DNA of 64,000 bases, from assembly GCF_007829835.1 (NCBI RefSeq), contig NZ_VIWP01000010.1, forward strand, positions 1 through 64,000, read 5' to 3'. The translations under genes and the position numbers were made by a program. The notes under the pieces were generated by a model. The model was not told the DNA's origin. It was given only the letters and a program-made list of their open reading frames with translations, and did no database searches. The first letter of the stretch is position 1; every line of letters begins with the position of its first letter. Source of the stretch: Neorhizobium alkalisoli. GTDB taxonomy: Bacteria > Pseudomonadota > Alphaproteobacteria > Rhizobiales > Rhizobiaceae. Positions 2,208-40,352 of the stretch are shown piece after piece.

Positions 2208-2209
2208 TG

Positions 2210-10014: not shown

Positions 10015-10091
10015 TTTGTTTCTCCCGATCTCAAGGGTTGCGATCCGACGCTCGCCCTTTTGCCCGTAAGAATGCCCCCGAATTCAGGCTG

Positions 10092-10123
10092 TGATAATCG
10101 GCGAAGATATGAAAGGATTATCA
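10092..10123. promoter_or_regulatory. Inverted repeat in the hlyD-lysR intergenic region
   Basis: TGATAATC (10092-10099) and GATTATCA (10116-10123) are perfect complements separated by 16 bases, between the divergent HlyD-type and LysR-type genes. Position and spacing suit a LysR-family operator acting on both promoters. Confidence 0.5.
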
Positions 10124-10150
10124 AGTGTCGGTTTAAGATGGGCGGAGATC

Positions 10151-11050
10151 ATGGACAGGTTGACGAGTTTGGAGGTGTTCGGCCGGGTCGTCGAGACGGG
10201 CGGTTTTTCAGCCGCCGCCCGCAAGTTGAACATGTCCACGACAATGGTCGCCAACCACATCAAAGCCCTCGAGGAAAGCCTCGGCGTTCTGCTCCTCCAA
10301 CGTACGACGCGGAAGGTAAGCCTGACGGAAACGGGGAAGTTCTATTACGACCGCTCTTCGACCATATTGATGGACCTCGAAGAGGCCAACGAGGCCGTCG
10401 GCGCGTTGTCGTCGACGCCTCGGGGGCAACTTCGCATGTATACGAACTCGTCCATGGTCCAGAGCCTGGCGGCGATCACGGACGAATTTGTCGAGCGCTA
10501 TCCGCAGGTGACGATCAGCCTGGATATCGGGGAACGCATGGTGGACATGATCGACGACGGCTACGACCTGGCGATAAGGATGACGACGCCGGACTCGAAC
10601 CTGATCGCTAGAAAGCTGGCGACCTGGAGGCACCTTGCGGTCTGTTCGCCGGAGTATGTCCTGCGGCACGGAGCGCCGGAAAAACCCGGCGACCTCGTCG
10701 ATCATAACTGCCTCAGGTATGCCCTATACGCCTTCGGCGACCTCTGGCGCTTTGTGGATCGCCAGGGTTCGATCGTGGAAACACGCGCGAGGGGCAGCGT
10801 CGTCTCGAGCAGTGCCGATCTCCTGCGCGATCTCGCCGTGCGCGGAAGGGGGATTTTTCTCGCCCCGAGCCCGGTCGTCGTCGAGGACATCGCGGCCGGA
10901 CGGCTCGTTTCCGTCATGACGGGTTACGAGGGCGTGGAATTCACGATCAGCGCCATCTTCCCGAACCGCAATCACCTGCCCAGCAAGGTCCGGCTCTTTA
11001 TCGATCTGCTGGTCGAGCGCTTTGCGCGACTGCCGCAGTTCGCGGCGTGA
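10151..11050 (+). CDS. LysR-family transcriptional regulator
   Basis: A 299-residue LysR regulator. The N-terminal winged HTH (about 1-60) includes Gly-Gly-Phe-Ser-Ala-Ala-Ala-Arg-Lys-Leu-Asn-Met-Ser and Leu-Glu-Glu-Ser-Leu-Gly. The effector domain (about 90-290) has Arg-Gly-Gln-Leu-Arg, Asp-Leu-Ala-Ile-Arg-Met and a late Leu-Pro-Ser-Lys-Val-Arg-Leu-Phe-Ile-Asp, as in the DsdC/AaeR-like groups. The start at 10151 is preferred over the open frame from 10091 because GGAG precedes it and the inverted repeat at 10092-10123 would otherwise be coding. It is divergent from the HlyD-type gene and followed by two alpha/beta hydrolases, which are plausible targets. The inducer is unknown. Confidence 0.88.
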   Translation: MDRLTSLEVFGRVVETGGFSAAARKLNMSTTMVANHIKALEESLGVLLLQRTTRKVSLTETGKFYYDRSSTILMDLEEANEAVGALSSTPRGQLRMYTNSSMVQSLAAITDEFVERYPQVTISLDIGERMVDMIDDGYDLAIRMTTPDSNLIARKLATWRHLAVCSPEYVLRHGAPEKPGDLVDHNCLRYALYAFGDLWRFVDRQGSIVETRARGSVVSSSADLLRDLAVRGRGIFLAPSPVVVEDIAAGRLVSVMTGYEGVEFTISAIFPNRNHLPSKVRLFIDLLVERFARLPQFAA

Positions 11051-25629: not shown

Positions 25630-25632
25630 GGT

Positions 25633-26649
25633 TCAGCCCGCCGTGGCGTTGGAAAGATCACTTGTGAGCAGGCCGGCATAGGGGTAGAGCGCCGGTGATC
25701 CACCGCAATGGATGAAGAGAACCGAGCTTCCCTTGCCGATCGAACCCTTTTCGACACAGCCGATAATGCCGGCGAAGGCCTTGCCGGTATAGACCGGATC
25801 GAGAAGCACGCCCTCGCTCTTGCCTGCAAGCTTGATTGCCGCATTGCCGTCTTCCGACGGGATCGAATAACCGGGACCGATATAGTCGTTCTCGATGCGG
25901 ATCTCGTCCGCCGTCCAGCGCTTCTCGTAAGCGAGAAGCTCGGCCGCGGCATTTGCCATGACGGCAATGCGCTCGCTGAACGGGACGGCGCTGCCGGTCA
26001 CCGCGATGCCGACCACTTCCGTCTTCGGCATGAACATGGCGCAGCCGACATGCAGGCCGGCCAGCGTGCCGCCCGATCCGACGGGGGCGACGATGTAATC
26101 CGGCGTGGCAGTGCCGGAGGCGGCATATTGCTCGGCGAGTTCCTTGACAGCATTGACATAGCCCATGGCGCCGAGTGCCGAGGCGCCGCCGAGCGGGATG
26201 ATGTAGGCCTTCTCGCCGCGGGCTTCTGCCTCATCCGCATGGTGCTGCATGCGTGGGTTGATCTCGGTGAAATAGGCGTCCGGATCAAGGAAATCGATGT
26301 CCGCGCCGAACAGATGGTCGAGCAGAAGATTGCCCTGATAGAGATCCGGGCGGTTGCCGCGCAGGACGAGGATCGGCTTCATGCCGAATTTCCGGGCCGC
26401 GGCGGCGGTCATGCGGGCATGGTTGGACTGGTGACCGCCGGTCGTAATCAGCACCTTGACGCCCTGCGCCACCGCGTCTGCCATCAGATATTCAAGCTTG
26501 CGAACCTTGTTGCCACCGCCGCCGAAGCCGGTGAAATCGTCGCGCTTGACGGAGAGCGAGATGCCAAGTTCCGCGCTCAGCCGCTCCAGCTTTTCGATCG
26601 GTGTCGGCAGGAAGCCGAGGGAGAGGCGGGGGATGTCTTCAAGCTTCAT
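25633..26649 (-). CDS. D-cysteine desulfhydrase / ACC-deaminase-family PLP enzyme
   Basis: A 338-residue fold-type II PLP enzyme. The PLP lysine is Lys48 in Gly-Gly-Gly-Asn-Lys-Val-Arg-Lys-Leu-Glu, followed by Thr-Thr-Gly-Gly-His-Gln-Ser-Asn-His-Ala-Arg, the phosphate and substrate loop of the D-cysteine desulfhydrase/ACC deaminase group. Such enzymes split D-cysteine to pyruvate, sulfide and ammonia, or act on related beta-substituted or cyclopropane amino acids. ATG at 26649 has GAGG eight bases upstream. It is the first gene of the leftward arm, about 55 bases from the shared palindrome. True ACC deaminase has specific active-site residues that I could not verify, so desulfhydrase-like is the safer name. 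Confidence 0.85.
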   Translation of the reverse strand: MKLEDIPRLSLGFLPTPIEKLERLSAELGISLSVKRDDFTGFGGGGNKVRKLEYLMADAVAQGVKVLITTGGHQSNHARMTAAAARKFGMKPILVLRGNRPDLYQGNLLLDHLFGADIDFLDPDAYFTEINPRMQHHADEAEARGEKAYIIPLGGASALGAMGYVNAVKELAEQYAASGTATPDYIVAPVGSGGTLAGLHVGCAMFMPKTEVVGIAVTGSAVPFSERIAVMANAAAELLAYEKRWTADEIRIENDYIGPGYSIPSEDGNAAIKLAGKSEGVLLDPVYTGKAFAGIIGCVEKGSIGKGSSVLFIHCGGSPALYPYAGLLTSDLSNATAG

Positions 26650-26703
26650 GAAATGATCCTCGTTTTCGAGCGCAGCGCATCGGAGGGCTTGGTCGCTCAC
26701 TAT

Positions 26704-26720
26704 GGATATATCATATATCC
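26704..26720. promoter_or_regulatory. 17-bp palindromic operator, left divergon
   Basis: GGATATAT, centre C and ATATATCC form a perfect palindrome in the gap between the desulfhydrase-like gene (minus) and the fused ABC ATPase gene (plus). Read on the minus strand it agrees at 15 of 17 bases with the site at 37265-37281 beside the gntR-type gene. It is the likely binding site of that regulator. Confidence 0.7.
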
Positions 26721-26818
26721 TATATCAGCGCTGGCAAGATGCTTTTATTTGTGGCATGCAACATAATGAGGCAGAGATGTCCTCGACCGCCTTCTGACGA
26801 CCCCCGAAAGGATTTGAC

Positions 26819-28663
26819 ATGGCTGAGCCCGTGATCAGCGTTTCCGGCTTGAAAACATCATTCCGCAGGAAAGGCCTGTGGCTGCCGGTCGTGCACGATG
26901 TCTCGTTCGAGGTTGCTGCCGGTGAAACGGTCGCTCTGGTCGGGGAGAGCGGATCGGGCAAAAGCGTCACGGCCATGTCGGTAATGCGGCTCTACCAGCC
27001 AGATACATGCCGCATTGAAGGCGAAGTCAGGCTCGAAGGGCAAAACCTTCTGACGCTGCCGGAACGGAAGATGCATGACATCCGCGGCAACCGGATCGCG
27101 ATGATCTTTCAGGAGCCGATGACCAGCCTCAATCCGTCGCTGACGATCGGCGACCAGATTTCCGAAGTGCTCGTTGCCCATCGCGGCCTTTCCTTCGGCG
27201 CGGCCGCCAAGGAGACGCTGGGGCTGATGGAAAAGGTCCGTATCCCGTCGGCGGCCAAGCGCATGGAGGAATATCCGCATCAGCTGTCCGGCGGCATGCG
27301 CCAGCGCATCATGATCGCCATGGCGCTCGCCTGCCGTCCGCGGCTCCTGATCGCCGACGAGCCGACCACGGCCTTGGACGTGACGATCCAGGCGCAGATC
27401 CTCGAACTGATCAAGCTGTTGCAGGAAGAAGAGGGAATGGGCGTCCTCTTCATCACCCACGACATGGGCGTCGTCGCCGAGATCGCCGACCGTACGATCG
27501 TCATGTACAAGGGAGAAGCGATCGAACGCGGAGAGACCGAGCAGGTTTTCGCCGACCCTCAGCGTGCCTATACGAAAGCGCTGCTATCGGCCGTGCCGAA
27601 ACTCGGCTCCATGACCGGTGAGGCAGGCCCCGCGCGTTTCCCGCTGATCGATGTCGAAAGCGGCGAGCCCGTTGCCATGCCGCCGGTCGAGGACACCGTG
27701 TCGATAAAGCCCGAACCTCTCCTGCAGGTCCGCGATCTCGTCACCCGTTTCGATATTGGCGGCGGCTTTCTGGGCTCGACGTCCGGCCGCGTTCATGCGG
27801 TGGAAAATATCTCTTTCGATCTGAAGGCCGGCGAAACGCTGGCTCTGGTCGGAGAGAGTGGTTGCGGAAAATCGACCACGGGCCGTACGATCATGCGGCT
27901 GCTCGACGCCAATTCGGGGTCGGTAAAGCTCGATGGCAAGGAACTTCTCGACCTTTCCAGCCAGCAGATGCGCGACATGCGCCGGCATATCCAGATGATC
28001 TTTCAGGATCCGTTCGCCTCGCTCAATCCGCGTATCGAGGTGGGCGATGCGATTGCCGAGCCGCTGCTTGCCCATAATATCGCCTCGGGCAAAAAGGACG
28101 CTCGAGATCGGGTGGCTGAGCTAATGGTCAAGGTCGGGTTGCAGCCGGACATGGCAAGCCGCTTCCCGCACGAATTTTCCGGCGGCCAGCGGCAGCGTAT
28201 CTGCATCGCCCGCGCGCTTGCCATGGCGCCGCAGGTGATCGTTGCGGACGAGGCCGTGTCGGCGCTCGACGTGTCGATCAAGGCGCAGGTGATCAACCTG
28301 ATGCTCGATCTGCAGGAAAGCATGGGCCTTGCCTATCTGTTCATCTCCCACGACATGGCCGTGGTCGAGCGGATGAGCCATCGCGTCGCGGTCATGTATC
28401 TCGGCGAGATCGTCGAGATCGGCCCGCGTCAGTCGATTTTCGAGAACCCGCAGCATCCCTATACGCGACGGCTACTGGAGGCCGTACCGATCCCCGATCC
28501 GACCCGCCGTGGCATCCGCCGAGGTCTCAGCAATGACGAGATCAAGAGCCCCGTCAGGCCCTTGTCCTATGTCGCGCCGAAGCGGGAGTATCGCGAAGTA
28601 TCGCCAGGCCACCTGGTTCAGGTCTTCGGCGATGAATGGGGTAATGCCGCAGTTGCGGCCTGA
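26819..28663 (+). CDS. Fused dual ATPase of a dipeptide/glutathione-type ABC importer
   Basis: A 614-residue protein joining two ABC ATPase domains, like GsiA or a DppD-DppF fusion. Domain 1 has Walker A Gly-Glu-Ser-Gly-Ser-Gly-Lys-Ser (42-49), signature Leu-Ser-Gly-Gly-Met-Arg-Gln-Arg and Walker B ending Ala-Asp-Glu-Pro. Domain 2 has Walker A near 344-351, signature Phe-Ser-Gly-Gly-Gln-Arg-Gln-Arg and Walker B ending Ala-Asp-Glu-Ala. Both domains end in the oligopeptide-family C-terminal extension. It must work with the binding protein and permeases of the right divergon at 33.9-37.2 kb, since no other permeases of this class are present. Its promoter region holds the shared palindrome about 100 bases upstream. 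Confidence 0.93.
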
Positions 28664-28693
28664 AGCTTGGGAAAGGGGTCAGGGAACGTGTCG

Positions 28694-29389
28694 ATGCAGA
28701 ACCGGGTTGCAATGATCAGCGGTGCCTCACGCGGCATTGGCGCCGCCATTGCGGAAAAACTCCTGGCCGAAGGCTGGGCCGTCAGCCTCGGTGTTCGGAC
28801 GCCTGAAACATCGACGTTCGTCGGAAATCCGAACGCCTTGGTCTGCCGTTTCGATGCGCTCGATCCGGCAAGCGAACGGAGCTGGGTCTACCAGACGATC
28901 GCCCATTTCGGCCGGCTGGACGGGCTGGTGCACAATGCGGGCATGATGATCCCGAAAACCGTGCTGGAGGCGGAAGACGCGGATTTCGACATGATCTTCA
29001 ACGTCAACGTCAAATCGCCGATGCGCCTTTCCCAACTCGCATGGCCGCATCTGGAAAAGGCGGCCGCAGGCCGTGTCGTGACCGTCGCGTCGCTTTCCGG
29101 CAAGCGGGTCAAATCGGCGGGCTCGGGTCTTTATGCCATGTCGAAATTTGCGGTGGTTGCTCTAGGTCATGGCCTTCGCCAATGCGGCAAGGACAGTGGC
29201 GTTCGTTCGACGGTCATCTGCCCGAGCTTTGTCGCAACCGATATGGGAAATGCGCTCGCCAATCGCGACAGCGCGGAATTGACCCAGCCGGAAGATATTG
29301 CCCGGATCGTGCATATGGTTCTCGAACTTCCCAAGACGGCGAGCATTGCCGAAATTCCTGTGCATTTCAGCGTGGAAGACTGCTACTGA
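28694..29389 (+). CDS. Short-chain dehydrogenase/reductase (SDR)
   Basis: A 231-residue classical SDR. The cofactor motif is Gly-Ala-Ser-Arg-Gly-Ile-Gly near the N-terminus; His-Asn-Ala-Gly, an active-site Ser in Val-Ala-Ser-Leu-Ser and Tyr-Ala-Met-Ser-Lys (about 146-150) complete the catalytic set. It oxidises or reduces an alcohol/carbonyl using NAD(P). ATG at 28694 is chosen, with AGGGA upstream; GTG at 28688 is an alternative. It follows the ABC ATPase by about 30 bp and precedes the FAD oxidoreductase by one base, so all three are co-transcribed. The substrate is unknown. Confidence 0.88.
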   Translation: MQNRVAMISGASRGIGAAIAEKLLAEGWAVSLGVRTPETSTFVGNPNALVCRFDALDPASERSWVYQTIAHFGRLDGLVHNAGMMIPKTVLEAEDADFDMIFNVNVKSPMRLSQLAWPHLEKAAAGRVVTVASLSGKRVKSAGSGLYAMSKFAVVALGHGLRQCGKDSGVRSTVICPSFVATDMGNALANRDSAELTQPEDIARIVHMVLELPKTASIAEIPVHFSVEDCY

Positions 29390-29390
29390 C

Positions 29391-30740
29391 ATGAACGCCC
29401 CCCTCATTCATCGCGGCCCGGCGATCACGGCGGTCGCGAATTCGCCAAAACTTCCCAAAAGCGTCGATGTGGCGATCGTCGGCGGCGGCATTATCGGCGT
29501 TTCCACCGCCTTCTTCCTGGCCCGGCAAGGCATCCGCGTCGCACTTCTCGAAAAGGGCGAGATCGGCGGCGAGCAATCCGGCCGCAACTGGGGCTGGGTC
29601 CGGCTTGCGGGTCGCGATCTGCGCGAACTGCCGTTGATGCTGCAATCCCATGCCATATGGGACACGCTGCGCCAGGAAACCGGTTTCGATGTCGGATATC
29701 GCCGGCGCGGTATTCTTTACGCGGCAAAAACGCCCGAAGCACGCGATCGCCACCGGCGCTGGGCGGCTGCAGCGCGCGAATTCGGCATCGATGCCCGAAG
29801 CCTCGACCCTTCGCAGGTCGCCGGTTTCGTGCAGGGCCTCAACCGTATGGTGTTCGGCGGTATGTACGTGCCGGAAGATGCCGGCGCGGAGCCACAGCTC
29901 GCAGCCCCTGCCATCGCATCCGCGGCACAAGCGGCGGGCGCCTTCCTCTTTCAGCAATGCGCCGTACGTGGTCTCGATATCGAGGCGGGCAAGGTTGCCG
30001 GCGTGGTGACCGAGAACGGCCGGATGAAGGCCTCGACGGTGATCGTCGCCGGCGGTGCCTGGTCGTCGCATTTGCTCTCGCGCCATGGCGTGCGTCTGCC
30101 GCAACTCAGAGTGCTCTCCTCGGTGATGCGCACGGCACCGCTCGAGACCAGTATCGAACCCGCAATGGGCTTTTCGGATTTCTCCATCCGCAAGCGGCTT
30201 GATGGCGGTTATACCGTCGCGTCCTCGGCCACCAGCCTCGTCGATATCGTGCCGAACAGCTTTCGTTTCTTCCGGGAGTTCATGCCGGCCTTCCGGCTGG
30301 AGCGGAAATCGCTGAAGCTGCGTTTCGGCAAGCCGTTTTTCGACGAACTGGTCGCATACAGGCATCGGCCGTTCGATGAGAAAAGCATTTACGAAACCAT
30401 CCGGGTTCTCGATCCGACGCAGGATGCGGAGCTGCTGGCCGGTGTCGAGGCCTATATGCGAGCCGGCATTCCGGCTTTCCGCGACGTGCCGATCGTACAG
30501 AAATGGGGCGGCATGATCGATACCACGCCGGATGTGATCCCGGTCATCTCGAAAGTCGAGGCGCTGCCGGGCCTTGTGATCGGCACCGGCTTTTCGGGCC
30601 ATGGTTTCGGCATTGGTCCGGGGGCGGGACGATTGCTGTCTGAGATCGCCACCGGCAGCACCCCTTGCGTCGATCCGGCCCCGTTCCGTTTCTCACGCTT
30701 CAGCGACGGAAGCCCGATCGAAATCCAGAGCTGGCTTTAG
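29391..30740 (+). CDS. FAD-dependent oxidoreductase, D-amino-acid-oxidase (DAO) family
   Basis: A 449-residue DAO-family flavoenzyme related to DadA, sarcosine and glycine oxidases. The ADP-binding motif is Val-Gly-Gly-Gly-Ile-Ile-Gly in the first 50 residues, then Leu-Glu-Lys-Gly-Glu and Asn-Trp-Gly-Trp-Val-Arg. The C-terminus has Gly-Thr-Gly-Phe-Ser-Gly-His-Gly-Phe-Gly-Ile-Gly-Pro, the second FAD contact. It would oxidise an amine or amino acid to an imine. The ATG comes one base after the SDR stop. Its 3' end overlaps the convergent sulfurtransferase stop by a few bases, so the two arms of the island meet here without a gap. Confidence 0.9.
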   Translation: MNAPLIHRGPAITAVANSPKLPKSVDVAIVGGGIIGVSTAFFLARQGIRVALLEKGEIGGEQSGRNWGWVRLAGRDLRELPLMLQSHAIWDTLRQETGFDVGYRRRGILYAAKTPEARDRHRRWAAAAREFGIDARSLDPSQVAGFVQGLNRMVFGGMYVPEDAGAEPQLAAPAIASAAQAAGAFLFQQCAVRGLDIEAGKVAGVVTENGRMKASTVIVAGGAWSSHLLSRHGVRLPQLRVLSSVMRTAPLETSIEPAMGFSDFSIRKRLDGGYTVASSATSLVDIVPNSFRFFREFMPAFRLERKSLKLRFGKPFFDELVAYRHRPFDEKSIYETIRVLDPTQDAELLAGVEAYMRAGIPAFRDVPIVQKWGGMIDTTPDVIPVISKVEALPGLVIGTGFSGHGFGIGPGAGRLLSEIATGSTPCVDPAPFRFSRFSDGSPIEIQSWL

Positions 30741-31558
30741 ACTTCCTCGGCCGGGCCGATCTCCAGCGGCAGGGCGGCATTGCCCGCCCATTCATGCCAG
30801 GATCCGACATAGATCTTCACCTTGTCGTAGCCAGCAAGCTTCAGGCCATAAAGCGCGGTCGCGGCGCGAGCGCCGCGGTGGCAATAGGTAATGATTTCGC
30901 GATCCGGCGACAGGCCGGCCTTTTCGGCGATCTCACGGATCTCGGCGGCAGGCCGGTATTTCCCGTCCTTCAGCATGTCCTCGTAGAATGCGAAATGCGA
31001 ATGGGGAATGCGGCCCGGACGTGCGCAGCAGGGATGCAGGAACGTTCCTTCAAATTCCGCCTTCCGGCGGACGTCGAAGACGTCGGCATCGTGATCCGCA
31101 TGATTCAGCACCTCTTGCGTGGAGGCGACGAGAGAACGATCGAACCGGAAGCCACCGGTGTTCGATTGTGCAATGACTTCTGGCAGGCCAATTCCTGACG
31201 CGGTACCACCTCCTGCAGCCTTCCACGCCTGAATTCCGCCATCAAGGACCAACCCGCCTTTCAAGCCGACGAACTCATAGAACCATAGGCCGCGTGGTGA
31301 AATCATGCCGGTCTGCTCCTCGAAGAACACCGGGATGCGGTCGCCGCCGAGACCTAGCCGGTCGAAAGATTCGCGCGCGCCCGCAGCCATGCCGGCAATT
31401 CCAGCCTCGTCGCTTTCCGGAATGAAGTAGTCATAGACGTTGAGACTGATCGCGCCCGGAATGGTTGCTTCGCGCCAGACTGCTTCGGGGCGGACATCGA
31501 CCGGAACGAGCCTGCCTTCCGGCAGCGTGCGGATGAGTTCGGCGGCGGTGATGATCAT
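30737..31558 (-). CDS. Two-domain sulfurtransferase (thiosulfate/3-mercaptopyruvate type)
   Basis: A 273-residue protein of two rhodanese modules. The N-terminal module (about 5-125) lacks an active Cys. The C-terminal module (about 140-265) carries Cys226 in Ile-Thr-Tyr-Cys-His-Arg-Gly-Ala-Arg, the persulfide loop. Enzymes of this layout move sulfane sulfur from thiosulfate or 3-mercaptopyruvate to cyanide, thiols or proteins. ATG at 31558 has AAGGAA six bases before it; the open frame extends far upstream but there overlaps the cyclodeaminase gene. Last gene of the leftward arm of the right divergon. With the desulfhydrase-like gene it points to a substrate containing reduced sulfur. Confidence 0.88.
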   Translation of the reverse strand: MIITAAELIRTLPEGRLVPVDVRPEAVWREATIPGAISLNVYDYFIPESDEAGIAGMAAGARESFDRLGLGGDRIPVFFEEQTGMISPRGLWFYEFVGLKGGLVLDGGIQAWKAAGGGTASGIGLPEVIAQSNTGGFRFDRSLVASTQEVLNHADHDADVFDVRRKAEFEGTFLHPCCARPGRIPHSHFAFYEDMLKDGKYRPAAEIREIAEKAGLSPDREIITYCHRGARAATALYGLKLAGYDKVKIYVGSWHEWAGNAALPLEIGPAEEV

Positions 31559-31587
31559 GGCCGGTTCCTTGTCTTCGTCTTTATGGA

Positions 31588-32577
31588 TCAGATTGAAGGC
31601 AGCAGCGTGCCGATATACATCGCCGCGGCGCTGCGCAGAATGCGGGCGGCAAAGGCGATATCGAAGACGTTGAGCCCGAAACTCGAGAAGTAGAGCGACG
31701 CGTCGGCCTGTGGCTTCCAGCCATCCAGAAGGATGGCTGGAAGGTCCGCCGCCACACGCTCGGCCGAAAACTGCCCGGCGCGATACATCTGGAATAGGCT
31801 CTTGGCGCTCTTGTTCGCGAAATCGCCCCAGAGATCGACGGTGACGATATCTGTCGCCGCGATCGTCTCGAACATGACTTCGTGAAAGCCGATCTGCATG
31901 ATCAGCCTGCCGGGCCTCACCACCGAGGCGTCGATGAATGGCTGGGGCGCCGAAGTGCAGCAGATGACGACATCGACGTTCGCGATCGCATCGGCCAGAT
32001 TGGCATGCGGCACCAGCCGCGTTGCCGCCGCTGTGGCGGCGGCCTGTTCTATCAACGTATCGAGATGGGCACGCGTGCGGTTCCAGAGATGGATCGCCTC
32101 GATCTCCGGAAACAGCGCCAGCAGCATGTCGAGATGCGACTGCGCATGCTGGCCGGCACCGAGAAGGGCAACCGATCTGATTCCGCCGGCTTTCAGCGCG
32201 CGTATCGCCGCTGCGGAGACGGCGGCGGTCCGCATGCGGGTGAGAAGGGCGCTTTCGACGCTGCCGACAGGCGCGCCATCGGCAAGGCGGTTGATGATGG
32301 TCGTGCTGCTGATACTCGGCAGGTCGCCGATCGGTTCGGCGCGGTGCACGGTCCACTTCAGGCCCGCCGCATCATAATCGCCGCCGACAAAGGCCGGCAG
32401 GCCATAGGCCTTGTTGCGGGGATCCATGCCAAGCGGCATGACGCTTTCGGCGACCATGCCTGCCCGGCCATCGCGCAGGAGCCGGATTGTCGCGTGCACG
32501 TCCTCGACGGCGGCCGTCCAGTCAAGAGCGCCGGCCTCGATCGCGTCGGTGCGGGAAAGGTGGCGGATCGTGGTCAT
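31588..32577 (-). CDS. Ornithine cyclodeaminase/mu-crystallin-family enzyme
   Basis: A 329-residue protein of the OCD/mu-crystallin family. The Rossmann motif is Val-Ala-Leu-Leu-Gly-Ala-Gly-Gln-His-Ala-Gln-Ser-His in the middle, preceded by Leu-Thr-Arg-Met-Arg-Thr-Ala-Ala-Val-Ser-Ala, the usual substrate/cofactor helix. Members include ornithine cyclodeaminase, alanine dehydrogenase and ketimine reductases that act on cyclic sulfur-containing imines. In this sulfur-flavoured cluster a ketimine or imino-acid reductase role is plausible, as inference. The ATG overlaps the M20 stop by four bases (ATGA), and the sulfurtransferase follows after 29 bp. Confidence 0.88.
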   Translation of the reverse strand: MTTIRHLSRTDAIEAGALDWTAAVEDVHATIRLLRDGRAGMVAESVMPLGMDPRNKAYGLPAFVGGDYDAAGLKWTVHRAEPIGDLPSISSTTIINRLADGAPVGSVESALLTRMRTAAVSAAAIRALKAGGIRSVALLGAGQHAQSHLDMLLALFPEIEAIHLWNRTRAHLDTLIEQAAATAAATRLVPHANLADAIANVDVVICCTSAPQPFIDASVVRPGRLIMQIGFHEVMFETIAATDIVTVDLWGDFANKSAKSLFQMYRAGQFSAERVAADLPAILLDGWKPQADASLYFSSFGLNVFDIAFAARILRSAAAMYIGTLLPSI

Positions 32578-33923
32578 GCCGCACTACCCTCGCTGCCCAT
32601 GAGGTCGAGCCATGTCGCGATCGACTGGATGAAGCGGCGGAACCCTTCGAGCGTCATGAATTCGTCGATCCCATGCGCATTGCCGCCACGGCCGGCACCG
32701 GCGAGCAGAAAGGATTCCGCATGAGGCGCAAAGGCATAAGCTGGCGCTGCCCCGATCGCCCACGGCCAGATCTGCGGCACGGTTTTGGCGGTGGTCTCGT
32801 AGCTTTTCAGCAGAGCCGAAACGCCGGGCGCGCTCGCGGCAAAACGAAAGCCCGGATAGCTGTCCGCGACGTTCAGAACCGCGCCGGGCGCGGCGTCCAG
32901 CGCTTTACGGTATTCTGCAAGAAAATCGGAAGGATCGAGGGATGGCGGCGTACGCAGTTCGAAACCGGCGCGTGCGCCATGCGGGATCACGCCGTCCGAA
33001 CCGAGTGGCAGGCTTTCCAGGCTCGATATGTTGAAGGACGCCGTGGACAGCACGTGTTCGAGCAGGGTCCGGGCATCGCCGTTCAGCGAAAAAGTCTCGG
33101 TCTTGCGAAAGCGCAGCTCGGCCTTGGGATCGAAAGCCGCGGCCAATGTGGTGACGATGCCGGTCGCCTCGTCGTCGATCGCAATTTTCGCGAGTTCGCC
33201 GGTTGGCGGCTTGCCGATCAGGGACAATGCTTCGACCAGGCGGCTCGCGGGATTGGCGATCCATGGCGCATTGCTGGAATGAATGGCCGCCTTCGGCCCG
33301 CCCCACGCACCGCCATCGACGCGGACCTCGCCCTTGGCAATGCCTGAAAAGCCGAGATAGACGCGTGGCGGCCCGCCGCCATATTCGCAGAAGGACGGAA
33401 AGATCGCCGATGCGCTTTTTCGAACGGTGCAGGCCGGATCGGCGAGATAGTCGCGCATCGCGCCGCTGCCGCTCTCTTCCTCGCCATCGACGAGGATCTC
33501 GACATTGACGCGCAGCCTGCCGGCATCCGCCAGCGCCTTGACGGCAAAAAGCATGCCGGCGAGCGGTCCCTTGTTGTTTTCGGCGCCGCGGGCAACGAAG
33601 CTTTCGCCAATGCCGTCGAGATCGACGATGCCGCCCTTGAACGGAGCAACCGACCAGCTATCCGGCGTGGCCGGCATCACGTCATACATATTGTAGAGGA
33701 TGACCGTCACCGGTGCCCCGACATCGAGGCGGGCGTGAATGACGGGCGGGCGGCCACGCGACGATGCCGAGGAGACGATCGAGGCGCCGAGTTCCGTTTT
33801 CAGCCAGTCGATGACGGCATCGGCCTGCTTCTGAAGTTCCGGTGTATCGCCCTTGACCGATGGAATGGCGCACCATTGCCGCGTCAGGTCGAGAGCCGCG
33901 TCGAAAATGGCGTCGGAGATCAC
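32574..33923 (-). CDS. M20-family metallohydrolase with substituted metal ligands
   Basis: A 449-residue M20 peptidase/amidohydrolase-like protein. GTG at 33923 overlaps the permease stop (GTGA), and no ATG lies near. The usual first zinc ligand His in Gly-His-x-Asp is Met79 (Tyr-Asn-Met-Tyr-Asp-Val-Met-Pro); Asp81 is kept. The bridging Asp two residues before Lys-Gly is Asn116 (Ala-Glu-Asn-Asn-Lys-Gly-Pro). The catalytic Glu pair in Asp-Gly-Glu-Glu-Glu-Ser-Gly-Ser (about 148-150) and the C-terminal His in Gly-Asn-Ala-His-Gly are present. It could be a mononuclear enzyme, use another metal, or have a changed role. Context suggests it acts on the imported peptide or amide. Confidence 0.83.
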   Translation of the reverse strand: MISDAIFDAALDLTRQWCAIPSVKGDTPELQKQADAVIDWLKTELGASIVSSASSRGRPPVIHARLDVGAPVTVILYNMYDVMPATPDSWSVAPFKGGIVDLDGIGESFVARGAENNKGPLAGMLFAVKALADAGRLRVNVEILVDGEEESGSGAMRDYLADPACTVRKSASAIFPSFCEYGGGPPRVYLGFSGIAKGEVRVDGGAWGGPKAAIHSSNAPWIANPASRLVEALSLIGKPPTGELAKIAIDDEATGIVTTLAAAFDPKAELRFRKTETFSLNGDARTLLEHVLSTASFNISSLESLPLGSDGVIPHGARAGFELRTPPSLDPSDFLAEYRKALDAAPGAVLNVADSYPGFRFAASAPGVSALLKSYETTAKTVPQIWPWAIGAAPAYAFAPHAESFLLAGAGRGGNAHGIDEFMTLEGFRRFIQSIATWLDLMGSEGSAA

Positions 33924-34840
33924 AGCCTGATCCTCGGGTTCAGCCAGACATAGGCGAGATCGACGAGGAAGTTGACGATGACGAAGACGGCCGCGGCAAA
34001 CAGGACGACCGCCTGTACGACTGGAAAATCGCGGTTCTGGATCGCCTCGACGGCAAGCCGCCCGATCCCCGGCCATGCGAAAATGATCTCGGTGACCAGC
34101 GCGCCGCCGAGAAGCGACGCGAAATACATGCCCTGTACGGTGATGACCGGGATCAGCGCGTTTCGCAGCGCGTGATGGACGATGATCCGCCACGAGGAAA
34201 TGCCTTTGGCACGGGCGGTGCGGATATAGTTCTCTCCGAGGACCTCGATCAGGCTGGCGCGCACCAGCCGGGTAATCGCGCTGAGATAATAGGCGCCCAG
34301 TGCAATCGACGGCATGATCAGATGCACTGCCGAGCCGATGCCGCTTGACGGCAGCCAGCGCAGTTTCAGCGAGAACAGGATGATCAGCAGCAATGCCAGC
34401 CAGAAGACGGGAATGGCCTGGCCGAGCAGCGAGATGATGCGGATGGCGAAATCGATCGCGCTGTTCTTGCGGACCGCGGCGATCGTGCCGAGCAGGAAGC
34501 CGAGAAGCGAGCTCCAGAGAAGCGCCGTCATTGCGAGAAGGGCCGTCGCCGGCAGGCGCTCAATCAGGAGATCGAGTGCAGGGCGCTGGAAGCGCAACGA
34601 GGTTCCCAGTTCGCCGGTGACAGCACTTGCCAGAAAGCGGCCGTACTGGATCCAGATCGGATCGTTGAAACCCATCGCCTGACGAAAGGCTTCGAGTTCT
34701 TCGCGCGAGGCATCGGGCGACATCATCATCGCAGCCGGATCGCCGGTCAGAAACAGCGCGAAGAAGACGATGGCCGAGACGCCGAACATGACGACGAGGC
34801 CTTGCAGCGCGCGTCCGGTGATAAAGCTCAGGGTCTTCAT
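33920..34840 (-). CDS. ABC importer permease, DppB/GsiC type
   Basis: A 306-residue inner-membrane permease with six hydrophobic segments. It has the oligopeptide-family N-terminal segment (Phe-Ile-Thr-Gly-Arg-Ala-Leu-Gln) and the EAA loop Thr-Ala-Arg-Ala-Lys-Gly-Ile-Ser near 230. It pairs with the DppC-type permease directly upstream (2-bp gap) and the M20 gene overlapping downstream. It forms the translocation pore of the island's importer with the dual ATPase encoded 7 kb away. Confidence 0.92.
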   Translation of the reverse strand: MKTLSFITGRALQGLVVMFGVSAIVFFALFLTGDPAAMMMSPDASREELEAFRQAMGFNDPIWIQYGRFLASAVTGELGTSLRFQRPALDLLIERLPATALLAMTALLWSSLLGFLLGTIAAVRKNSAIDFAIRIISLLGQAIPVFWLALLLIILFSLKLRWLPSSGIGSAVHLIMPSIALGAYYLSAITRLVRASLIEVLGENYIRTARAKGISSWRIIVHHALRNALIPVITVQGMYFASLLGGALVTEIIFAWPGIGRLAVEAIQNRDFPVVQAVVLFAAAVFVIVNFLVDLAYVWLNPRIRL

Positions 34841-34842
34841 GG

Positions 34843-35682
34843 TTATGTGTTCCTGCTGTCGGCACGCCGCACGAGCCAGTCGCCGATCAGATTGCAGCCG
34901 ATCACCAGCGCGCCGATGACGAGGCCCGGATAAAGCACCAGCCAGTTGGCGAGCAGGATGAAGGAGCGTCCTTCACCGATCAGGTTGCCGAGCGTCGGGG
35001 TCGGTGGCTGGACGCCGAGACCGAGAAAGCCGACCGAGGCTTCCAGAATGATCAGGCGCGGCAGGTCGAGCGTCATCAGGACCGTGATCGGGCCGACGAT
35101 GTTCGGCAAGACATGGCGAAAGATGATGACCATGTCCGACAGGCCGATCGAGCGCGAGGCGTCGATATATTCCAGCTCGCGGATTTCCAGCGTCTTTGCG
35201 CGCGCGACACGGGCAAACACCGCCCAGCCGGTGACGCCGAGCACGACGACCAGATTTCCCATGCTCGGGCCAATGACGGCGACGATCAGGAGAATGAGGA
35301 GAATGAACGGGATGGCGAGCTGCACATCGACGGCGCGCATGATGATGATGTCGAACCAGCCGCGGTAATAACCGGCGATCATGCCGAGCGTCGTGCCGAG
35401 CACGACCGAGATCACGGAAGCGGCCAGAACGATCGACAGCGAAATCGCCGTGCCGAGCCCCAGCCGGGCGAGGAGATCCCGCCCGAGCTGGTCGGTTCCC
35501 AGCGGATGGAACTCTCCGCCGATGACGGAGAGCGGTGGCTTGAATGTCGCGGTGAGGGTGCCGCGCACCGGATCGATCGGCCACAGGAGTGGCACGAAGA
35601 CGCAGAGCGCCAGAACCGCAACCAGAAGGAAACCGGCGAACATTGCGTCCGCGTTTTCCCTGACATTCCAGAACCGTGTCAT
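34843..35682 (-). CDS. ABC importer permease, DppC/GsiD type
   Basis: A 279-residue permease. After an N-terminal transmembrane helix come the DppC-family periplasmic segment His-Pro-Leu-Gly-Thr-Asp-Gln-Leu-Gly-Arg-Asp, further helices and an EAA-type loop with Ile-Asp-Ala-Ser-Arg-Ser-Ile-Gly-Leu. It follows the binding-protein gene by six bases and precedes the DppB-type gene by two, so the three are co-translated. Partner of the dual ATPase in the left divergon. Confidence 0.92.
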   Translation of the reverse strand: MTRFWNVRENADAMFAGFLLVAVLALCVFVPLLWPIDPVRGTLTATFKPPLSVIGGEFHPLGTDQLGRDLLARLGLGTAISLSIVLAASVISVVLGTTLGMIAGYYRGWFDIIIMRAVDVQLAIPFILLILLIVAVIGPSMGNLVVVLGVTGWAVFARVARAKTLEIRELEYIDASRSIGLSDMVIIFRHVLPNIVGPITVLMTLDLPRLIILEASVGFLGLGVQPPTPTLGNLIGEGRSFILLANWLVLYPGLVIGALVIGCNLIGDWLVRRADSRNT

Positions 35683-35688
35683 GCTGAA

Positions 35689-37176
35689 TTACTGCTTCTT
35701 GATGTCGAAGATCGGGATACGCGCATCCGGACGGCCCTCGAAAGTGACCGACTTTGCCTTACCGTAAAGCGCGTCTTCCTGATAGAGCGGGATGACTGGG
35801 ACCTGTTCTGCGGCGAGATCCTGGATCTGGGTGAGAACCGCCGAGCGCTTGGCCGGATCGACGATCGAGCGGCTTTCGTCGAGCAGCTTGTCCATTGCCG
35901 GGATCGAGGCCGTCGAATAGGGTTCGCCGGTCTTGAAGATCGCGTAGACGGCGGCATCCGCATCGAGCGTCTGGGTCGAGCCCCAGCCGAGCATGAAGAT
36001 CGGCCCCTTGCGCGGAACCTGCTGGGTATAGACCGACCAGTCGAGAACTTCCTGATCGACCTTGACGCCGATATCGCCGAACTGCTGGGCGATCGCCTGG
36101 GCGACTTCGCCATCCTTCATGTAGCGATGGGTGGACTGCATCTTGATCGAAAAGCCGTTCGGCAGGCCGGCCTCAGTAAGCAGGGCCTTCGCCTTCTTCG
36201 GATCGAACGGGGTGACCGGCATGTCCTTGTAGCCGAAATCGGCGGCGCCGACCTGGGTGCCGCGCGGCGAGGCCATGCCCTGCAGGATGTTCGTGACGAT
36301 CGACTGACGATCGATCGCCATGTTGAGCGCCTGACGAACCTTGACGTTGTCGAGCGGCTTTTCGCTCATGACGAGGCCAAGATAGATGGTGAGGCCGCCG
36401 TTCTTGACCTGGACGAGATCGGCATCGGGGCTTGCCTTGACCATCGGTGCGATATCGACGGGCACGTTTTCGATCAGGTCGACTTCGCCGGTCAGAAGTG
36501 CGGTGATGCGGGCGGTGCCGTCCGGAATCGCACGCCAGGTGACCTTGTCGATCGACGGTGCACCGCGCCAGTAATCCTTGTTGGCCTGCAGGATGACATG
36601 CTGGTCCGGAACGAATTCGACGAACTTGTAGGGACCCGTGCCGACCGGCTTGCGGGCGAAGACGTCATTGCCGACTTCCTTCACGTATTTCGGCGGGACG
36701 ATATAGGCGGGATAACGGCTCATGCGGGTCGGCAGAAGCGGATCGGCGCCCTTGGTCTTGATGCGGACGGTCATCGGGTCGACGATCGAGACACTGTCGA
36801 TCGTGCGGATATAGGATACGGTCGGCGACTTGGCCGCCGGATCGAGGACACGGTCGATGGTGAACTTGACGGCTTCGGCATCCATCGGCTCGCCATTGTG
36901 GAACTTGACGCCGGGACGCAGCTTGAATTCCCAGGTCGTGTCGTCGATCGCGGTCCAGGAGGTCGCAAGGCCTGCAACGAGCTTCATGTCCTTGTCGCGC
37001 ATGACGAGCGTGTCGAAAATATTGTCGACGATGGTCGCGCTTTCCTTGAGGAAGCCGGGATCCATGGCGGTGGTGGAGGCGCCGCGTCCGACCACGAGAT
37101 CGGCTGCATTGGCAATCGCCGTGGTGACGGGCAGGAGCATGGATGCCGCAAGGGCTAAAGCAGCAAGTTTTTTCAT
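35689..37176 (-). CDS. Periplasmic solute-binding protein, family 5 (peptide/glutathione type)
   Basis: A 495-residue SBP_bac_5 protein with a Sec signal (Lys-Lys followed by an Ala/Leu-rich core ending Ala-Asn-Ala near 24). It carries the family segments Trp-Glu-Phe-Lys-Leu-Arg-Pro-Gly-Val-Lys-Phe-His-Asn-Gly and Gly-Thr-Gly-Pro-Tyr-Lys. It captures the substrate for the importer; the family takes peptides, glutathione, nickel complexes, opines and related amides, so the ligand is open. It is the first gene of the leftward arm, next to the palindrome at 37265-37281. Confidence 0.92.
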   Translation of the reverse strand: MKKLAALALAASMLLPVTTAIANAADLVVGRGASTTAMDPGFLKESATIVDNIFDTLVMRDKDMKLVAGLATSWTAIDDTTWEFKLRPGVKFHNGEPMDAEAVKFTIDRVLDPAAKSPTVSYIRTIDSVSIVDPMTVRIKTKGADPLLPTRMSRYPAYIVPPKYVKEVGNDVFARKPVGTGPYKFVEFVPDQHVILQANKDYWRGAPSIDKVTWRAIPDGTARITALLTGEVDLIENVPVDIAPMVKASPDADLVQVKNGGLTIYLGLVMSEKPLDNVKVRQALNMAIDRQSIVTNILQGMASPRGTQVGAADFGYKDMPVTPFDPKKAKALLTEAGLPNGFSIKMQSTHRYMKDGEVAQAIAQQFGDIGVKVDQEVLDWSVYTQQVPRKGPIFMLGWGSTQTLDADAAVYAIFKTGEPYSTASIPAMDKLLDESRSIVDPAKRSAVLTQIQDLAAEQVPVIPLYQEDALYGKAKSVTFEGRPDARIPIFDIKKQ

Positions 37177-37264
37177 GGGGCCTTCACTTCCTCTGGAGTT
37201 GGTATTTGTTATTCCTTGTCACGGTCCTCGTGCCGGATACGCAAAAGGCTTGTGAATGATGTGA

Positions 37265-37281
37265 AGATATATGATATATTC
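37265..37281. promoter_or_regulatory. 17-bp near-palindromic operator, right divergon
   Basis: AGATATAT, centre G and ATATATTC lie between the binding-protein gene (minus) and the gntR-type gene (plus). It matches the reverse complement of the palindrome at 26704-26720 at 15 of 17 positions. The arms pair except at the outer bases. Probable autoregulatory GntR operator. Confidence 0.7.
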
Positions 37282-37353
37282 TGTGTGGGCAAGATATAGG
37301 CAATTTCGAATCCGTGATAAAAAACGAGCATTTTTTCCAAGGGCGAGGGTCAG

Positions 37354-38046
37354 GTGAGTACGGCTTTGTTCAATGCGGCTCCTAGAAAGAGCCTGGTTAC
37401 CCATGTGGAGGACGAGATCCGCGCCGCGCTGATCGAAGGTCGGCTGGAGCCCGGCACGCGTCTGGTCACGAAAGATCTGGCCGATTCCCTCGGCATGAGC
37501 ATTACGCCCGTGCGCGAGGCGCTGGTCCGCTTCGCTGCGTCCGGCGTTCTGACCGCCGAGCCGGCGCAATCGTTTCGCGTGCCGACGATGACGGTGGCGC
37601 AATATTTCGAGATCGCCGAAATCCGCAAGGCGGTGGAGGGACTGGCGGCCTATAATGCCGCGCAGCAGATCGGTGCCGACGAGATCGCGGAAATGCAGGT
37701 GCTGCTGAAGAAGTACCTTGTGGCCAAGGCCGCCAAGGACCAGCATCTGGCGCTGACCCTGAACAAGGAATTCCGCTTCGTGCTCTATTCCGCGGCCCGC
37801 ATGCCGACCCTTCTTGGGGTGATCGAGATGCTGTGGTTGAAGGCCGGTCCGGGCTTCAATTATCTCTTTCCGGAAGCCCAAACGGGCTCAGGGGATCACC
37901 AGAACTATAACGGTCTGATGCAGGCGCTGCAGCAAAAGCAGGCCGCGGCCGCGCGAACGGCTATCGAACATGCGATAGACGATGGTGCGCGGATCGTCAT
38001 CGAGGCGCTCAAACGGCGCGAAGAACAGCCGATGGCCGTGAAATGA
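37354..38046 (+). CDS. GntR-family (FadR/FCD-type) transcriptional regulator
   Basis: A 230-residue GntR regulator. The winged HTH (about 10-75) contains Gly-Arg-Leu-Glu-Pro-Gly-Thr-Arg-Leu and Ser-Ile-Thr-Pro-Val-Arg-Glu-Ala-Leu. The helical C-terminal domain is of the FCD type, which binds small acids or amino-acid-like ligands, often through a metal. The start is GTG at 37354 with GAGG five bases upstream. It is divergent from the binding-protein gene and overlaps the bis-MGD oxidoreductase by four bases (ATGA). With the same palindrome at both divergent promoters it is the probable switch of the whole 22-43 kb island. Confidence 0.9.
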   Translation: MSTALFNAAPRKSLVTHVEDEIRAALIEGRLEPGTRLVTKDLADSLGMSITPVREALVRFAASGVLTAEPAQSFRVPTMTVAQYFEIAEIRKAVEGLAAYNAAQQIGADEIAEMQVLLKKYLVAKAAKDQHLALTLNKEFRFVLYSAARMPTLLGVIEMLWLKAGPGFNYLFPEAQTGSGDHQNYNGLMQALQQKQAAAARTAIEHAIDDGARIVIEALKRREEQPMAVK

Positions 38047-40352
38047 CGTTGCCGGTCGTCACGAAAAATACCAAGATCCGCACAGCCGCCCATTGGGGCG
38101 TCTACGAAGTCACGTCCGAACCAGCTGGCGGCCTGAGCATCAAGGCTGCGTCGGAGGATCTCGATCCGTCGCCGATCGGGCTGCATATGGCGTCCAAAGC
38201 CCTGAAAAAGGTGCGGATTGCCCGGCCGGCGATCCGCAAGAGCTGGCTGGAGAACGGCCCCGGATCCAATCCGCATCTGCGCGGTCGCGAGCCGTTCGTC
38301 GAGGTGGAATGGGATGTCGCGCTCGATCTCCTTGCCAAGGAATTCCAGCGCGTCACGACGACTTTCGGCAATGAAGCGATCTTCGGCGGCTGCTATGGTT
38401 GGGCCAGTGCCGGACGGTTTCACCATGCGCAAAGTCAAGTCCACCGGTTTCTCAACCTGATCGGCGGCTATGTCAGCCATGTCGACAGTTACAGCTTGGG
38501 AGCGGGCAAGGTCATCCTGCCGCATGTCATTGCGGGATTAAGCCCTCTGCTCAATCAGCATACGTCCTGGGACGTGATGGCCGAAAATACCGAGCTCTTC
38601 GTCACCTTCGGCGGCATACCGGTGAAGAACGCCCAGATATCGCAGGGCGGTCCGGGCCGCCATCGGGTCCTTGCCGGCATGCGCAGCATGGCTAAGGCGG
38701 GTACGCGTTTCGTCAATATCAGTCCCGTGGGCGACAACATGCCCGTGGACAGCGAGTGGCTGGCGATCCGGCCCAACACGGACACTGCGATGATGCTGGC
38801 GATCGCTTATGTCCTGCATGTCAACGCGCTTGCCGACTTCGACTTCCTGCGCAGCCACTGCATCGGCTATGAACGCTTTGCCGATTATCTGACCGGTGTC
38901 ACCGATGGCATCACCAAGACACCCGCCTGGGCATCTGAAATCTGCGGCGTCCCGGCGGAACGGATAGAGGCACTGGCGCGGGAGATGGCATCGCACCGAA
39001 CCATGCTCAATATTTCATGGTCGTTGCAGCGCGCGGTGCATGGCGAGCAGCCGTTCTGGATGCTGATCACGCTCGCAGCCATGCTCGGCCAGATCGGTCT
39101 ATCCGGTGGCGGCTTCGGCGTCGGCTATGGCGCCATGAACTCCGTCGGCAACGACAATGTTCGCTTCAAGTTCGGGGACTTTCCGCAGGGGCTGAACCCG
39201 CTGAAGACCTTCATTCCGGTCGCGCGCATTGCTGATATGCTGCTCAATCCCGGCAGCCAATTCACCTATAACGGCAAATCCTACATTTACCCCGATATCC
39301 GGCTTGTCTACTGGGCCGGCGGCAATCCGTTTCATCACCATCAGGATCTCAACCGGCTGCTCCAGGCCTGGAAGAAGCCCGAGACGATCATCGTCAACGA
39401 ACCCTATTGGACGCCCACCGCCAAGCTTGCCGATATCGTGCTGCCGGTCACGACATCGCTGGAGCGCAACGACATAGCCGCCGCTAGCGGCGAGGATTTC
39501 GTCGTCGCGATGAAGAAGGTGGAAGAGCCCTTCGGTCAATCCAGAAATGATTTCGATATCTTCAATGCGCTCGCCAAACGCATGGATATCGACTTCTCCG
39601 AAGGGCTCGACGAGGAGGGATGGCTGCGCCGTCTCTATGACGTCTCGCGCGAAAACGCCGGAGCAATGGACATTCAGATGCCGGATTTCGACGATTTCTG
39701 GCAGCAGGGCTTGTTCGATCTCGGGCAAGAAGCGAAGCCGGTAATCATGCTCGACGACTTTCGCCGCGCGCCAGCCAAGCATCCCCTATCTACCCCGTCG
39801 GGACGGATCGAGATCTTCTCCGAAACCATTGCGAACCTTGGCCTTCCCGATTGCGCCGGTCATCCGACCTGGCTCGAGCCGGCTGAATGGCTTGGTGCGG
39901 CATCGCGTGCGAAACAGCAATTGCACATGATCTCGGACCAGCCCGTGCGCCGCCTGCACAGCCAGCTTGACGCCAGCCCCCACAGCAGGGAAGGCAAGGT
40001 TGCCGGCCGCGAACCGATCCATATCAATTCCGCCGATGCTGCCGCGCGTGACATCGGTGACGGCGATCTGGTCGAGGTGTTCAATGATCGTGGCCGTCTG
40101 ATCTCGGCTGCCGTCGTCTCAGATGCGATCATGCCCGGCGTGCTGCGGCTTTCGACCGGGGCATGGTTCGACATGGATTATGACGCGGGTATTGAACGGC
40201 ATGGCAATCCAAATGCCGTTACGCTCGATGTTCCTGCGTCCTCCCTCTCGCAGGGCTGTAGCGCCCAGACATGCATCGTGGGAATCCGCAGGCTGGAGCT
40301 CAAACAAGCCACGCCTGTCCTGGCCTTCGAACACCCGGAATTTCAAAAATAA
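38043..40352 (+). CDS. Molybdopterin (bis-MGD) oxidoreductase, BisC/TorZ-like S- or N-oxide reductase
   Basis: A 769-residue molybdoenzyme of the DMSO-reductase family, closest in layout to biotin/methionine sulfoxide reductases and TMAO reductases. It lacks an N-terminal iron-sulfur Cys motif. The probable Mo ligand is the Ser in Gly-Trp-Ala-Ser-Ala-Gly-Arg-Phe-His-His (about residue 120). Later segments include Ser-Asp-Gln-Pro-Val-Arg-Arg-Leu-His-Ser and the C-terminal molybdopterin-dinucleotide domain. No Tat signal is visible, so it is probably cytoplasmic, like BisC. The ATG overlaps the gntR stop. In this context it may reduce a sulfoxide or N-oxide form of the imported compound; that is inference. 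Confidence 0.88.
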   Translation: MTLPVVTKNTKIRTAAHWGVYEVTSEPAGGLSIKAASEDLDPSPIGLHMASKALKKVRIARPAIRKSWLENGPGSNPHLRGREPFVEVEWDVALDLLAKEFQRVTTTFGNEAIFGGCYGWASAGRFHHAQSQVHRFLNLIGGYVSHVDSYSLGAGKVILPHVIAGLSPLLNQHTSWDVMAENTELFVTFGGIPVKNAQISQGGPGRHRVLAGMRSMAKAGTRFVNISPVGDNMPVDSEWLAIRPNTDTAMMLAIAYVLHVNALADFDFLRSHCIGYERFADYLTGVTDGITKTPAWASEICGVPAERIEALAREMASHRTMLNISWSLQRAVHGEQPFWMLITLAAMLGQIGLSGGGFGVGYGAMNSVGNDNVRFKFGDFPQGLNPLKTFIPVARIADMLLNPGSQFTYNGKSYIYPDIRLVYWAGGNPFHHHQDLNRLLQAWKKPETIIVNEPYWTPTAKLADIVLPVTTSLERNDIAAASGEDFVVAMKKVEEPFGQSRNDFDIFNALAKRMDIDFSEGLDEEGWLRRLYDVSRENAGAMDIQMPDFDDFWQQGLFDLGQEAKPVIMLDDFRRAPAKHPLSTPSGRIEIFSETIANLGLPDCAGHPTWLEPAEWLGAASRAKQQLHMISDQPVRRLHSQLDASPHSREGKVAGREPIHINSADAAARDIGDGDLVEVFNDRGRLISAAVVSDAIMPGVLRLSTGAWFDMDYDAGIERHGNPNAVTLDVPASSLSQGCSAQTCIVGIRRLELKQATPVLAFEHPEFQK

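Follow-up and report, generated by a model that had tools for sequence, protein, structure and literature searches.

Enzymes of the M20 family are textbook cocatalytic di-zinc hydrolases, and the locus described here raises the question of what becomes of such an enzyme when the ligands of one of its two metals are missing. The window analyzed is a stretch of 64,000 nucleotides from the alphaproteobacterium Neorhizobium alkalisoli (assembly GCF_007829835.1, contig NZ_VIWP01000010.1, positions 1 to 64,000 of the forward strand), and the gene in question encodes a predicted M20A hydrolase in which, by alignment, metal site 1 has been dismantled. An earlier note on this DNA had claimed that Met79 and Asn116 replace the first His ligand and the bridging Asp, that the Glu pair and the late His remain, and that the gene is intact within an operon; all of these claims were borne out by the alignments and the gene context described below. 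The open reading frame (ORF) is uninterrupted and encodes 449 residues; its GTG start at 33923 and the stop of the permease gene upstream overlap, its own stop lies at 32574, and a gene for an ornithine cyclodeaminase-like (OCD-like) protein overlaps it in turn.

Active-site residues of the M20 protein

The gene and the codons of the residues discussed here are located as follows, the residues having been assigned by alignment.

32574-33923, minus strand: predicted hydrolase of the M20A fold, metal site 1 dismantled (ORF, Pfam, phmmer, and AlphaFold2)
33687-33689, minus strand: codon of Met79, the first His ligand in canonical M20A proteins (codon checked)
33681-33683, minus strand: codon of Asp81, the Asp of the HxD motif, kept
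33576-33578, minus strand: codon of Asn116, the bridging Asp in canonical M20A proteins
33474-33479, minus strand: codons of Glu149, the general base, and Glu150, a site-2 ligand, both kept
33393-33398, minus strand: codons of Pro176-Ser177, where canonical relatives have the acidic third site-1 ligand
33279-33281, minus strand: codon of His215, the trans catalytic His, kept
32952-32954, minus strand: codon of Arg324, kept
32673-32675, minus strand: codon of His417, the late His and a site-2 ligand, kept

The protein matches the M20 sequence profile PF01546 (Peptidase_M20) at 53.8 bits (cut-off 24.6), and PRK06446, an M20 subfamily model, is its top NCBIfam match (130 bits, under the cut-off of 369). 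The dimerization profile PF07687 (M20_dimer) finds no match in it at E 0.001; the same profile passes in three relatives (loci L028, L024 (P0002), and L105). The AlphaFold2 model, built from 54 aligned sequences (mean predicted local distance difference test score 93.8, predicted template modeling score 0.91), is predicted to have the M20 fold, with Sso-CP2 (4mmo) as the top structural match (Z 42.2, root-mean-square deviation 2.2, 423 residues), followed by CN2, DUG1, and 2pok; the carnosinase-type M20A dipeptidases (CN2/CNDP2, CN1, and DUG1) match at Z 37-38. Fold searches, Foldseek included, gave no functional hint beyond M20.

Sso-CP2, an M20 metallo-carboxypeptidase from Sulfolobus solfataricus, is also the closest solved relative by sequence (phmmer E 2.9e-35), and its pairwise alignment sets YNMYDV of the window protein against YNHYDV, and RGAENNKG against RGASDNKG. 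The two proteins share the fold, the Glu-Glu pair, the trans His, the Arg, and the late His, but where Sso-CP2 has a His, a bridging Asp, and an acidic Glu, the window protein has Met, Asn, and Pro/Ser. DUG1 (by name a Cys-Gly dipeptidase; HYDVQP and DDTGP) and CN2 (HLDVQP and DDKGP) likewise have His and Asp where the window protein has Met and Asn, and 2pok, like Sso-CP2, carries a Glu at the position of the lost third ligand. Misalignment of Met79 and Asn116 was considered and ruled out, as pairwise, profile, and multiple alignments concur and both motifs retain their flanking invariant residues.

PMC11511702 lists the M20A metal ligands as H91, D123, E158, E185, and H425, and the catalytic residues as D93, E157, and H226. 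These correspond here to M79, N116, E150, P176/S177, and H417, and to D81, E149, and H215, respectively, so that by this list the window protein lacks three of the five metal ligands and retains three of three catalytic residues. The third loss, at Pro176-Ser177, where canonical relatives have an acidic ligand following the next core strand, is an addition to the earlier note, which had named two. The division of ligands between sites we take from DapE, assuming site 1 to consist of His67, Asp100, and Glu163, and site 2 of Asp100, Glu135, and His349. On that assumed assignment, the three residues lost in the alignment are exactly all of the ligands of one metal site, the bridging carboxylate included. 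Arg324, which is retained, presumably serves in carboxylate binding.

Sampling, history, and selection of the clade

Homologs were collected without a motif filter from the same genus (present in 11 of 57 genomes), the same family (6 of 297; the genome itself is counted in both figures), the phylum, the order to which genome G555 belongs (21 of 147 genomes, with loci for 20 of the 21 matches), and plasmid records (109 with a match, eleven retrieved). The phylum was covered by a profile search of 398 genomes, with matches above 229 bits in 11 genomes; among the 71 places found, 30 were read as loci (11 clade, 19 canonical), and two places from the genome itself (L172 and L175) were read as well and are both canonical. 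An additional contig scan with the peptide patterns YNMYDVM and [AG]RGAENNK, and hence biased towards them, contributed 76 loci. The loci L009-L023, when read, were all Met/Asn. Altogether, 137 sources (window included) gave 132 rows, comprising 107 with Met/Asn, 22 with His/Asp, and single cases of Leu/Asn (L024), Thr/Asn (L100), and Asn with no residue at position 79 (L103). No His/Asn or Met/Asp mixtures occur among the 132 rows, and the sole His/Asn case found later (L178) belongs to a different M20 subgroup.

Residue columns were compared across 105 clade rows (79 from the core and 26 from a sister group) and 25 canonical rows, after removal of short rows (L149 with Met/Asn; L006 and L008, both His/Asp), the decayed L100, and duplicates. 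In column 79, Met is found in 103/105 clade rows (the other two have a Leu and a gap) and His in 25/25 canonical rows, column 116 holds Asn in 105/105 and Asp in 25/25, and columns 176-177, assigned by sequence alignment rather than superposed coordinates, are acidic in 0/105 and 25/25, respectively. The Met/Asn pair, whose conservation in a clade the earlier note had raised as a possibility, is thus nearly invariant and no chance substitution. The remainder of the active site is retained: Glu149, Glu150, Arg324, His417, and Glu421 are present in every clade and canonical row (105/105 and 25/25), His215 in 105/105 and 24/25, and Asp81 in 104/105 (one gapped) and 25/25.

The core rows also contain an invariant Cys179 and Glu180 (79/79) adjoining the lost third ligand, as might be expected if the dinuclear site had been rebuilt with other ligands (e.g., Cys179, Glu180, or Met79 in the subclade of the window) that would hold a softer second metal. 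However, the sister rows share Met/Asn or Leu/Asn and yet have Cys179 in 0/26 and any acidic residue in columns 174-180 in 1/26 only, with Gln at column 180 in 22/26. Because the altered site exists in these rows without Cys179 or Glu180 as ligands, a rebuilt dinuclear site is regarded as quite improbable.

Bit scores were tried as a divider between the two states, full-length clade rows scoring above 229 and canonical rows below 156 in two of the read sets, and proved too simple, as five canonical plasmid rows score 126-189 and Sso-CP2 reaches 226. Trees were therefore relied on. Maximum-likelihood trees computed without the trait columns separate all clade rows from the canonical rows, the root being assumed to lie between the two groups. 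A quickly built tree of 74 rows supports this split at 92 by the Shimodaira-Hasegawa-like approximate likelihood-ratio test (SH-aLRT). Support is 100/97 in a more careful tree of 68 rows and again in one of 66 rows that includes Sso-CP2 and 2pok. Rows from the motif-scan contigs were thinned for these trees to every fourth, sixth, or eighth; the 68- and 66-row trees omit L117, L134, L142, L144, L150, and L151, and the 66-row tree also omits L103, while L024, L105, Sso-CP2, and 2pok are flagged as long branches. Clade members come from Alpha- and Gammaproteobacteria, a Cytobacillus plasmid (L028, Bacillota), a Gemmatirosa plasmid (L163, Gemmatimonadota), a Thaumarchaeota metagenome-assembled genome (MAG; L105), and an Anaerolineae MAG (L099) that may reflect a binning error. 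As judged from these trees, the altered site marks one deep, old, and widespread clade.

The window gene is under purifying selection and is not decaying, with a ratio of nonsynonymous to synonymous substitution rates (dN/dS) of 0.11-0.14 against six relatives. A sequencing error or pseudogene is ruled out for the window copy by this ratio, by the intact frame, and by the presence of identical residues in many independent genomes. What a member of the clade looks like once freed from selection is suggested by L100 (9947-11272, Enterobacter sp. R1(2018)), which has Thr79, Gln150, Pro215, and Arg417 and whose gene island is gone save for the GntR regulator and a 30% ATPase match; the joint loss of Met79, Glu150, His215, His417, and the island is as expected of such a gene. 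The loss of metal ligands is a usual sign of a dead enzyme, and some few genes of the clade indeed seem damaged (decay in L100, one internal stop each in L023 and L149, and a split into two pieces in L103), both of which would agree with a catalytically inactive relative serving as a binding or scaffold protein. Nevertheless, the general base, the trans His, the carboxylate Arg, and the site-2 ligands are kept in 105/105 rows although a mere binder would not obviously need all of them, and both the low dN/dS and the placement in a catabolic operon speak against inactivity, which is considered very improbable.

Counting the window gene, the genome of N. alkalisoli itself has 27 M20 matches. Among the other 26, 14 loci gave an alignable ORF and 12 were unmatched by the profile used; L005 and L176, whose motifs are the same, evidently represent a single gene, leaving 13 genes read. 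The first His is kept in 13/13 of these and the Asp in 12/13, the exception being L178 (287-1513; contig C1 at about 171286-172512), with Asn at the bridging-Asp position (VSNMKAG). In L178 the Glu-Glu pair is replaced by GEL and the late His is absent from the alignment, making it a differently degenerate M20 protein of another subgroup.

Gene island and candidate substrates

The neighborhood of the M20 gene was surveyed by tblastn across 81 loci (L025-L105) with queries from the window, L026, and L027; paralogs count as matches, some loci are cut by contig ends, and most derive from the motif-biased scan. The window features are listed with the number of loci in which each family is matched.

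22031-23602, minus strand: hydantoinase/oxoprolinase subunit B (24/81, query from L027)
23599-25629, minus strand: hydantoinase/oxoprolinase subunit A (22/81, query from L027)
25633-26700, minus strand: pyridoxal phosphate (PLP) lyase, D-cysteine desulfhydrase/CuyA-like (start approximate; 66/81, query from L026)
26819-28663, plus strand: fused double ATPase of a dipeptide-type ATP-binding cassette (ABC) transporter (75/81, paralogs included)
28667-29389, plus strand: short-chain dehydrogenase (SDR) (start approximate; 23/81)
29391-30740, plus strand: flavin adenine dinucleotide-dependent amine oxidoreductase of the DAO family (start approximate; 20/81)
30737-31564, minus strand: two-domain rhodanese, sulfurtransferase-like (start approximate; 63/81)
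31588-32577, minus strand: ornithine cyclodeaminase/mu-crystallin family protein (OCD-like), overlapping the M20 gene (78/81)
33920-34840, minus strand: ABC permease, dipeptide type (76/81)
34843-35682, minus strand: ABC permease, dipeptide type (75/81)
35689-37176, minus strand: periplasmic substrate-binding protein, SBP_bac_5 (72/81)
37354-38046, plus strand: GntR/FCD regulator (70/81)
38043-40352, plus strand: BisC-type molybdopterin S/N-oxide reductase (17/81)

Every surveyed island family is present in the window within 22031-40352, except that SfnG, for which a fragment query matched only its own source locus among the 81, was not sought there. No other family recurs in more than 8 of 79 loci. 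Judged from these matches, the M20 gene sits within a conserved catabolic island. For the binding protein, NCBIfam gives GsiB, a glutathione binder, as the top model (227 bits, cut-off 594), and the BisC-type reductase scores 929 bits, below its subfamily cut-off of 1018. A 681-residue open frame at 35113-37158, antisense to the binding-protein gene, is probably a high-GC artifact. In the Acetobacter loci L095 and L089, M20 and OCD genes are present with no match to the dipeptide-type ABC transporter; by eye, an ORF resembling the major facilitator superfamily was seen in L095 and a TonB-receptor-like ORF in both.

The combination of lyase, rhodanese, and S/N-oxide reductase points to an organosulfur amino-acid conjugate as the substrate of the island, and such a conjugate is probable from these neighbors. 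Candidates include beta-lactam/penicillamine compounds, thiazolidine or 2-oxothiazolidine, S-sulfocysteine, and Cys-Gly conjugates; the neighboring genes fit several of these and exclude none. The lyase passes the D-cysteine desulfhydrase subfamily model TIGR01275 (318.1 bits against a cut-off of 289.4), and its top model is CuyA (328.6 bits, with the NCBIfam equivalog cut-off of 450 not reached). It thus belongs to the same family as the lyase of loci for CuyA (D-cysteate sulfo-lyase) or D-cysteine desulfhydrase, but under the CuyA equivalog cut-off; no described CuyA locus with this M20 gene was found among the papers listed in a search of the open-access literature. According to PMC11742315, the M20A peptidase PepV cleaves a Cys-Gly conjugate, and its metal-ligand variant D173A is inactive.

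In L158, the Leu79/Asn116 variant (that of L024; here at 9038-10417) lies ~5 kb from ORFs (1366-4217) that by eye we take to resemble a sulfoacetaldehyde acetyltransferase and a sulfite exporter. Also by eye, the sister-group M20 proteins at L152:8300-9832, L157:7948-9450, and L159:9160-10728 have N-terminal stretches resembling Sec or Tat signal peptides, unlike the window protein, which looks cytoplasmic.

Metal use and mechanism

Structures of M20 enzymes with one metal (DapE, 3isz and 4o23; acetylcitrulline deacetylase, 2f7v) indicate by their titles that the family can hold a single metal. In these structures the five ligands are all present and the metal loading is partial, in contrast to the window protein, in which the ligands themselves are gone. 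The earlier note had found that a di-zinc site seemed impossible and had suggested that the protein may be a mononuclear or metal-free variant with a new reaction. With all site-1 ligands lost, a canonical di-zinc site of the DapE or CPG2 kind is indeed very unlikely. As for the reaction, the kept M20A catalytic and carboxylate-binding residues favor ordinary amide hydrolysis at least as strongly as a new reaction. Since Glu149, Glu150, His417, His215, and Arg324 are all retained, the simplest reading is an M20A-type mononuclear amidohydrolase with one metal at the surviving site 2, a proposal in which our confidence is about even and which would achieve ordinary amide hydrolysis by altered metal use.

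According to this mononuclear proposal, metal site 1 would have been lost all at once, with Met in place of His, Asn in place of the bridging Asp, and Pro-Ser in place of the acidic third ligand. The enzyme would hydrolyze an amide substrate, dipeptide-like or an N-acyl amino acid, and would use no more than one metal, bound by Glu150, by His417, and possibly also by the carbonyl of Asn116. Glu149 would act as the general base, Arg324 would bind the carboxylate of the substrate, and the tetrahedral intermediate would be stabilized by His215 from the partner subunit. The operon's own dipeptide-type ABC transporter may bring the substrate into the cell, and the cysteine-like amino acid set free may then be degraded by the PLP lyase, the OCD-like protein, and the rhodanese encoded next door.

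Several points weigh against parts of this scheme. Mono-zinc DapE (3isz and 4o23) carries its metal at site 1, which is the site missing here, so a lone metal at site 2 would be unusual, and a Glu, a His, and a neutral Asn would form a weak metal site. The assignment of a sulfur substrate draws on the neighbors only, among them a lyase that stays under the CuyA cut-off and a rhodanese that is remote from the mercaptopyruvate sulfurtransferase model (78 of 250 bits). Additionally, the same site occurs outside the core clade where the island does not: in the archaeal MAG (L105) only the M20 query was matched in the island survey, in the Cytobacillus plasmid (L028) peptide-type transporter matches were obtained and the lyase, OCD protein, and rhodanese were not found, and seven of nine listed loci (L152, L154, and L156-L160) showed the M20 ORF but, by eye, no island-type neighbors, ORF calling having failed on the other two (L153 and L155). 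Island chemistry therefore cannot explain the altered site, which is probably older than the island pathway.

The neutral character of the site may instead reflect catalysis by a metal-free M20 fold through Glu149, Glu150, His417, and His215, possibly on an activated or non-amide substrate and perhaps in a new reaction. The change of Asp to Asn together with the loss of all site-1 ligands removes the bridging negative charge, and the Gln at column 180 in most sister rows (Glu in the core) places a further neutral residue near the site; however, the site-2 ligands Glu150 and His417 are kept in 105/105 rows, and the need for both is not obvious without a metal, which leaves metal-free catalysis unlikely. 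An M20 fold can carry an unusual reaction, as in 5-nitroanthranilate aminohydrolase (5k8m-5k8p), which in the fold matches has 13-15% identity to the window protein. A broader proposal, that the whole clade works without metal, or with a single metal at site 2, and carries out hydrolysis or another reaction on a sulfur-containing conjugate via Glu-Glu-His, is put forward tentatively and remains the less expected outcome.

No description of this clade or island was found among the papers listed in a search of the open-access literature, a search that did not extend to MEROPS and CDD, and the annotated clade members that were examined are labeled metallo-hydrolases by homology. The clade flags a batch of likely misannotated proteins, and it marks a conserved island for the use of what is probably an organosulfur amino-acid conjugate. 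If the clade did work without metal, or with one metal at site 2, M20 enzymes could no longer be regarded as cocatalytic di-metal hydrolases without exception. A clade that, by alignment, lacks exactly one metal site and little else in the active site would also represent a natural experiment on the role of each metal in the family.

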